DNA of 61,151 nucleotides from assembly GCF_027531815.1 (NCBI RefSeq), contig NZ_JAPZSK010000012.1, forward strand, positions 1-61,151, given 5' to 3'. The stretch is from Gemmatimonas sp. Its GTDB lineage: Bacteria; Gemmatimonadota; Gemmatimonadetes; Gemmatimonadales; Gemmatimonadaceae. The position numbers and the translations under genes are program-made. The number at the start of each line of letters is the position of its first letter. Position 1 is the stretch's first letter. The notes below the pieces were generated by a model that made no database searches, was not told where the DNA came from, and was given only the letters and a program-made list of their open reading frames with translations. Below, piece after piece: positions 53,269 through 54,820 of the stretch.

Positions 53269-53439
53269 CTACCGCCCAGTGCCGGGGCCGTTGGGCGTGT
53301 CGCGCACGACGATGCGCCAGATGATGAGGAACACCCCGGCGGTCAGCAGCAGGTGAATCCAGCCGGGCGCCTCCGTGGCGACGGTGAGCCCGCCCCAGAC
53401 GACCAGCATCACGATTCCGGCAAGCAGAGTGAGGTCCAT
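53269..53439 (-). CDS. Very small membrane protein, DUF5670/Lmo0937-like
   Basis: A 56-residue protein with two predicted membrane helices (LTLLAGIVMLVVWGGLTVA and IHLLLTAGVFLIIWRIVV) and a short polar C-terminus. The layout 'two helices joined by xxGWIHLLL' matches the small DUF5670/Lmo0937 family. The start is ATG 53439, 5 nt after TAGATT; the ORF could extend upstream but without a membrane signature. It lies antisense and adjacent to the 6S RNA promoter. Confidence 0.65.
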   Translation of the reverse strand: MDLTLLAGIVMLVVWGGLTVATEAPGWIHLLLTAGVFLIIWRIVVRDTPNGPGTGR

Positions 53440-53444
53440 GAGAC

Positions 53445-53463: not shown

Positions 53464-53492
53464 TTGCGCGTTCCGGGGCCGCATTCTACAAT
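53464..53492 (+). promoter_or_regulatory. Sigma70-type promoter of the 6S RNA candidate
   Basis: TTGCGC (53464-53469), 17 bp spacer, TACAAT (53487-53492), giving a start near 53499. It is the best consensus-like promoter in the window. Confidence 0.7.
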
Positions 53493-53498
53493 ACGCCT

Positions 53499-53709
53499 CG
53501 TATCCATGGCTGCGGGGGCGGGGAGGCTTTACTTCTTGAGCCGATAAGTCCTGAGAAGGGATTCAACAAACGGGTGAACGTCATGCCCCAGTGCGGGGAA
53601 GGCGACAGCGCGGTGAGAGTCTTATTGTTTTCTTTGGGCTTCAAGATCACCCTCTTCGTTCCCGTGTTGTTGCGAAGGCCCCGTCCTTGTGGCGGGGCCT
53701 TCGCTTTGG
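53499..53709 (+). ncRNA. ssrS: Candidate 6S RNA (ssrS)
   Basis: A noncoding transcript of about 170-210 nt between a strong promoter and a strong terminator. Arm 53511-53526 (TGCGGGGGCGGGGAGG) pairs continuously with 53651-53666 to give a 16 bp closing stem with several G-U pairs. After an asymmetric internal loop, CTTGAGCC (53535-53542) pairs with GGCTTCAAG (53637-53645, one bulge). TTGAGCCGATAAG in the 5' side resembles the conserved TGAGCCGATA of proteobacterial 6S RNA, and the 3' side GGGCTTCAAG resembles its GGGTTCAAGG. 6S RNA mimics an open promoter and sequesters sigma70 RNA polymerase. I see no long conserved frame in it. Confidence 0.68.
53672..53704 (+). terminator. Rho-independent terminator of the 6S RNA candidate
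   Basis: A perfect 12 bp stem GCGAAGGCCCCG and its complement, 9 nt loop, followed by TTT. It lies 50 bp before the ptpS start, so read-through or a hidden promoter would be needed for ptpS. Confidence 0.85.
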
Positions 53710-53754: not shown

Positions 53755-54168
53755 ATGCCAATCGTTACCGTGACACGCCGTCTCCGCTTCAACGCGGCGC
53801 ACCGAGTTCACAATCCTGCGCTCTCCGACGCCGAGAACACCCGGCTCTTCGGCAAGTGCAACAACCCCAACTGGCACGGTCACAACTACGAGTTGGAAGT
53901 GTCGGTCCGGGGGCCCGTGGATGAGCGAACCGGTTACGTGATCGACCTGGGGCAGCTGCGGGACGTGGTGGACCGGCATGTGATCGACGAGACGGACCAT
54001 CGCAATTTCAACATCGACGTCCCCTACACGCAGGGCATCAATCCGACCACCGAAAACGTGGTGGTGGCCATGTGGCGGGTGCTCGCTCCGGCGATCGCGC
54101 CCGCCCAACTGGTTCGACTGCGGCTCTGGGAAACCGAGAACAACTATGTCGACTACGAAGGGGAATAA
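53755..54168 (+). CDS. ptpS: 6-pyruvoyltetrahydropterin synthase (QueD/PTPS family, C-x5-HGH type)
   Basis: A 137-residue zinc enzyme of the tunnelling fold. The zinc ligands are H16, H41 and H43; the catalytic cysteine is C35 in [13 protein letters not shown]. The spacing C-x5-HGH is that of PTPS making 6-pyruvoyltetrahydropterin for tetrahydrobiopterin, not the C-x3-HGH of QueD. The C-terminal [10 protein letters not shown] carries the pterin-anchoring Glu. It overlaps folE by 23 bp and is followed by an SDR gene. An automatic annotation would probably call it QueD. Confidence 0.85.
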
Positions 54169-54820
54169 GGACGTGATCCGACCTGTAGCAGGAGTGCCGT
54201 CGGGACGTGCGGCGGTCAGCGTCGTCGATCCCGACGACTTCGCCGTGGATGGCAACCTCGCCGAGTACGAAACGATGGTGCGTCGTCAGCTCGAACTGAT
54301 CGGAGAGGACCCCGATCGTGAGGGGCTACTCAAGACGCCGAGCCGTGTGGCCAAGGCGCAGATGTGGCTCACCCGCGGCTACGGCCAGACGGCATCGGAA
54401 GTCATCGGCGACGCCTTGTTCGCGGAGGATCACGAGAACATGGTCATGGTGCGTGACATCGAGATGTACTCGATGTGCGAGCACCACATGTTGCCCTTCT
54501 TCGGCAAGGTGCACATCGCCTACATCCCCAACGGCAAGATCGTGGGGCTGTCGAAGCTGCCGCGCGTGGTGGAAGTGTTCGCGCGCCGCCTGCAGGTGCA
54601 GGAGCGTCTCGGGGAGCAGATCGCCGACGCGCTGGAAGAGGTACTGCAGCCCAAGGGGGTCGGCGTCGTCATCGAGGCGGTGCATCTGTGCATGATGATG
54701 CGCGGTGTGGAGAAGCAGAGCTCGCGGACGATCACGTCCAGCATGCGGGGCCTGTTTCGCGACGATTCGAAGACCCGCAGCGAGTTTCTGCGGCTCGCCC
54801 ACTCCCCCACCACGTACTGA
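54146..54820 (+). CDS. folE: GTP cyclohydrolase I
   Basis: Converts GTP to 7,8-dihydroneopterin triphosphate, the precursor of folate and biopterin. The 224-residue protein is type IA: zinc site C111 and H114 in MCEHHMLPF plus C182 in HLCMMMRG, with [19 protein letters not shown] and [11 protein letters not shown] in the active site. It begins at ATG 54146 inside ptpS or, more likely, at GTG 54173, which follows AAGGGGAATAAGGA; the enzyme is then 215 residues. It is cotranscribed with ptpS and the SDR gene. Confidence 0.96.

Follow-up and report, generated by a model that had tools for sequence, protein, structure and literature searches.

The question raised by this locus is whether an RNA gene of Gemmatimonas sp. 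belongs to a family that its phylum would seem to lack. In resting bacteria, the small 6S RNA takes the guise of an open promoter and turns RNA polymerase off, and this global transcription regulator is held to be present in almost every bacterium. The library model (Rfam RF00013) exceeded its gathering cutoff of 46.4 bits in only 3 of 298 genomes, so that the Gemmatimonadota would appear to be without 6S RNA. We analyzed a stretch of 61,151 nucleotides (the window), for which a preliminary description had proposed a 6S RNA gene. Judged by sequence, positions 53500–53707 (+) very probably represent a single-copy ssrS gene encoding a 6S RNA homologue, and 6S function is predicted on the same grounds. 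The features are listed in Table 1.

Table 1. Predicted features of the 6S RNA locus and its downstream genes (positions in the window).
Feature	Position	Strand	Basis or partner
-35 element TTGCGC	53464-53469	+	Sequence; promoter pattern kept upstream across loci
-10 element TACAAT	53487-53492	+	Sequence; same conserved promoter pattern
Predicted primary 6S RNA transcript	53500-53707	+	Promoter and terminator positions; ends are predictions
Closing stem, 5' arm	53506-53526	+	Pairs with 53651-53670
6S RNA core, covariance-model match	53513-53666	+	R1 and R2
Inner closing helix UUGAGCC, 5' side; predicted pRNA template	53536-53542	+	Pairs with GGGCUUCAA
Central bubble, 5' strand (approximate extent)	53543-53558	+	Contains AAGUCC 53546-53551
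Predicted pRNA start base U, matching E. coli U44	53545	+	Alignment position
Apical hairpin CGUC-AUG-CCCC..GGGG-AA-GGCG, most conserved block	53579-53604	+	Identity and covariation
Central bubble, 3' strand (approximate extent)	53617-53635	+	Model alignment
Inner closing helix GGGCUUCAA, 3' side	53636-53644	+	Pairs with 53536-53542
Closing stem, 3' arm	53651-53670	+	Pairs with 53506-53526
Intrinsic-terminator-like hairpin, short U-tract	53672-53707	+	Stem survey and window sequence
queD/PTPS family gene (PF01242)	53755-54168	+	Downstream of RNA in most phylum loci
folE, GTP cyclohydrolase I (PF01227)	54146-54820	+	Downstream neighbour

The promoter elements TTGCGC and TACAAT are separated by 17 nt, as had been described, and this spacing places the predicted transcription start at approximately 53499–53500. 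The transcript is predicted to be about 208 nt long with the terminator and about 165–172 nt long if trimmed to the closing stem. Of 98 loci, 80 (3.3 expected) have a σ70-type pattern (TTGnnn-N16–18-TAnnnT) in front of the RNA, and 52 (0.2 expected) have TTGACn; the window promoter itself is too weak by consensus for detection in the consensus scan. The terminator arms, GCGAAGGCCCCG (53672–53683) and CGGGGCCTTCGC (53693–53704), form the perfect 12 bp stem that had been reported, or 14 bp with a bulge, and are followed by a short U-tract (CTTTGG) that is weak by consensus. Stems of at least 9 bp were present 3' of the RNA in 77 of 96 loci, with a mean longest stem of 12.6 bp against 6.7 bp in shuffled sequences. 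The gene is thus predicted to be transcribed from a housekeeping (σ70-type) promoter of its own, with the hairpin terminator as the signal for the 3' end. Upstream of the promoter, a divergent gene (53269–53440, −) encodes a 56-aa membrane-like protein with a weak, below-cutoff match to DUF5670, and this gene is kept at that place in most of the family.

The closing stem, described as 16 bp, comprises 20 bp in the predicted fold, including G-U pairs and a bulge, and both named strands of the second stem were found, TTGAGCCGATA at 53536–53546 and GGGCTTCAAG at 53636–53645. The single-sequence fold of the window RNA was only slightly better than those of shuffled sequences (z = −2.05). Because of this weak z-score and the weak promoter, the window alone is no proof of a 6S RNA.

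The comparison with related genomes that had been called for showed a conserved locus with heavy compensatory change. The locus was kept in 123 of 148 same-family genomes (blastn). An alignment of 65 family loci, made without fitting to a model, contained 32 invariant columns, concentrated in UUGAGCC, GGGCUUCA, and the apical hairpin. On this alignment, RNAalifold predicted 38 pairs, 21 of them with two-sided changes, and counted by cells the two-sided changes numbered 132, against 31 in shuffles and 16–33 in slid controls. The covariance model built from it (R1) matched the window core with 133 bits (E 1.2e-30). Of the 395 Gemmatimonadota genomes, 363 have an R1 match, in most cases a single one, as do 266 of the 286 good genomes. 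A broader model (R2), built from Gemmatimonadota sequences alone and so free of E. coli sequence, matched the window core with 113.5 bits as the sole significant match in the 4.3 Mb genome, and recovered several genomes missed by R1. Neither R1 nor R2 gave a match in a minority of the fairly complete genomes, and many of these assemblies are fragmented.

The phylum-wide alignment of 52 sequences was model-fitted and therefore leans towards the structure; in it, 33 of 38 pairs showed two-sided changes (317 cells against 88 in shuffles), and 92.4% of cells were paired, compared with 39–56% when slid. All 10 modelled pairs of the closing stem had two-sided changes across the phylum, with 94.8% of cells paired, and the inner closing helix was paired in 97.6% of cells. 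The apical hairpin was identical at 27 of 27 bases in several distant genera, and its helices 7 and 8 show two-sided changes. The relatives thus share two arms with compensatory change that flank a central bubble (closing stem, bubble, and apical arm).

The full-length RF00013 model aligned with the window at 53504–53674 on the correct strand, but scored only 14.1 bits; the gathering cutoff is a detection threshold of the library and no biological property. No Rfam family exceeded its cutoff in a direct scan of the window sequence, and an RF00013 search of the window's own whole genome gave no match. The preliminary description had held that a below-threshold score together with a loss of compensatory pairing would speak against a 6S RNA; the low score was indeed obtained, whereas pairing was kept among the relatives with abundant compensatory change. 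Relatives at the same locus scored 19–37 bits. Over the 298 genomes, RF00013 gave 28 matches at E ≤ 0.1, of which 27 fell on an R1 or R2 locus; one of the three above-cutoff genomes had its match off the conserved locus. The deep-branching loci L103 and L104 exceeded the cutoff (56.6 and 53.3 bits) and also matched R1 (61.3 and 41.8 bits), and through these intermediate Gemmatimonadota sequences the window RNA is tied to above-cutoff RF00013 matches. Locus L102 (genome G123, contig 266; 62.5 bits with RF00013) was excluded as evidence; it matches neither R1 nor R2, lies on a different contig from the R1 match of G123, and is possibly contamination.

An accepted 6S RNA, that of E. coli, was also recovered with R2, which covered ssrS end to end with 24.1 bits and an E of 2.7e-4 in 71 kb (match L101:2013-2171, ssrS annotated at 2001–2184); the narrower R1 did not find it. 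In the R2 alignment, UGAGCCGAUA, the AUG/AA apical loop, and GG-UUCAA coincide, and E. coli ssrS has UGAGCCGAU at the model positions of the 5' side of the window's inner helix, so that the bubble signature (UGAGCCGAU on the 5' side and GG-UUCAA on the 3' side) is present. The two RNAs share the closing stem, the internal loop, the inner helix UGAGCC/GG-UUCA, the bubble with a GAU pRNA start, and the apical arm with its AUG/AA internal loop; the E. coli apical block GAGC-AUG-CUCGG..CCGAG-AA-GCCU occupies the same place as the apical hairpin of the window. They differ in that the window RNA scores low with RF00013, has a core of about 154 nt compared with 187 model positions, and carries one extra base in its GGGCUUC strand. 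Among the sequence-based hallmarks of a 6S RNA that were examined, only the library-model score is lacking for the window sequence; the identification given in the preliminary description is supported by the conservation, covariation, homology, signature, and synteny of the relatives.

In regard to synteny, queD and folE lie directly downstream of the RNA on the same strand in most phylum loci, and the order 6S-queD-folE recurs across many families. The QueD protein encoded in the window shares 98% identity with that of a Gemmatimonas sp. MAG, in keeping with a Gemmatimonas-like genome. This order parallels ssrS-fau in Proteobacteria, and folate/pterin neighbours are common to both systems (fau in E. 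coli, queD-folE here). In E. coli, the order is zapA-ssrS-fau, and for β- and γ-proteobacteria 6S has been described as always following zapA in such operons (PMC7641849). zapA (PF05164) is located directly upstream of the RNA in L103/L152, L104, and L105/L159, with zapA-like matches upstream also in L109 and L148. The position downstream of zapA is thus shared with E. coli in deep Gemmatimonadota lineages and was not seen in the window's family. The zapA synteny is support that is independent of the RNA sequence, and the linkage outside Proteobacteria suggests an ancient arrangement. The gene 3' of the 6S RNA is RNase Y in L159 and of the YmdB type in L104 and L148.

The position of the RNA just upstream of queD and folE, on the same strand in most loci including those of other families, together with the terminator between them, is also what a cis-acting leader or riboswitch for these genes (pterin/queuosine/folate) would show, the hairpin then acting as a regulated terminator. 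However, at least 12 homologous loci are without queD or folE nearby (L057, L058, L060, L070, L104, L106, L108, L146, L148, L152, L154, and L159), which argues against a dedicated leader. Moreover, the best Rfam match of the relatives is 6S, no riboswitch family was found at the locus, the consensus fold is that of 6S, and deep homologues follow zapA. We therefore regard a leader as very unlikely. A slightly lower probability still is given to an RNA like Ms1 of Actinobacteria, which is structurally related to 6S and has RNA polymerase as its presumed target (PMC9130861), but binds the core enzyme without sigma, unlike 6S. In its bubble signatures (UGAGCCGAU/GG-UUCAA) and its pRNA start the RNA agrees with E. 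coli 6S, and the matching Rfam family is 6S; Ms1 is here set apart by its published description and not by sequence. A chance structure in an intergenic spacer without RNA function would agree with the z-score of −2.05 and the sub-threshold Rfam score, but phylum-wide conservation and covariation and the conserved promoter and terminator stand against it; it was rejected as already contradicted by covariation, and its probability is negligible.

If the RNA acts as 6S RNA, the folded molecule would imitate an open promoter with two helical arms around an internal bubble. By homology, at low nutrient levels it would fill the active site of RNA polymerase carrying the housekeeping sigma factor and block promoters. 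Upon renewed growth, the polymerase would initiate opposite U53545 and copy UGAGCC to give a predicted product RNA (pRNA), 5'-AUCGGCUCAAGAAG; short products formed by the holoenzyme on the window RNA would begin 5'-AUCGGCUC. This synthesis would open the inner helix and release the enzyme. Binding of RNA polymerase, inhibition, pRNA synthesis, release, and stationary-phase accumulation are all presumed by homology. The E. coli pRNA starts at U44 (PMC8876501), and 97 of 98 loci have a pyrimidine, U or C, at the equivalent base, which fits product RNAs that begin with a purine; L138, which falls outside the search pattern, reads GGGCCGACA, hence C at this position.

Once freed, the GGGCUUC strand may collapse the bubble by pairing with AAGUCC in its 5' strand, a proposal modelled on the bubble-collapse helix (CBCH) known from B. 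subtilis 6S-1 (PMC8876501). In the window, AAGUCC (53546–53551) could instead pair with GGGCUU (53636–53641), and the 5' strand of the bubble reads AAGUCC, AAGCUC, AGGUCC, or GAAGCC depending on the clade, each of which can pair with GGGCUU(C). Among these related sequences, the mean longest helix was 6.9 compared with 5.1 in shuffles, with at least 6 in 101 of 107, which lends moderate statistical support to the hypothetical pairing. Such an AAGUCC or GAAGCC bubble partner would be an alternative to the 3' hairpin of E. coli. The predicted Gemmatimonadota pRNA starts with A, unlike that of B. subtilis 6S-1, which starts with G (PMC8876501). It is a speculative and rather improbable proposal that the Gemmatimonadota RNAs form a distinct subtype, in which AAGUCC/GAAGCC and UGAGCC compete for GGGCUUC as a release switch and queD-folE are co-expressed by terminator read-through. 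If true, the read-through would couple the control of RNA polymerase with one-carbon metabolism, a link that ssrS-fau may also provide in E. coli.

By sequence comparison, the window RNA is a divergent branch of the known 6S family that the library model misses at its cutoff. The novelty is modest, as the family itself is already known; a literature search returned no relevant paper on 6S RNA in Gemmatimonadota, and an earlier report may exist. The R1 and R2 models and the alignments close the detection gap and provide a testable pRNA sequence.

Some genomes contain two 6S copies. As in B. subtilis, which has 6S-1 and the paralogue 6S-2, one Gemmatimonadota family (f6) has two 6S genes, the second copy being present in ten of the genomes checked (L194–L197, L199–L202, L165, and L167). 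Most of these copies form one supported clade (100/99) of divergent 6S-like sequences, and a tRNA-Met gene lies within about 20 nt downstream of six of them (L196, L197, L199, L200, L167, and L202), which suggests a 6S-2 paralogue co-transcribed with tRNA. A second 6S sequence type, whose bubble contains GAAGCCGGG, was observed in L057, L058, L060, L070, L106, and L108. These loci occupy other genome positions in some genera within the family of the window, and genome G064 has both types.
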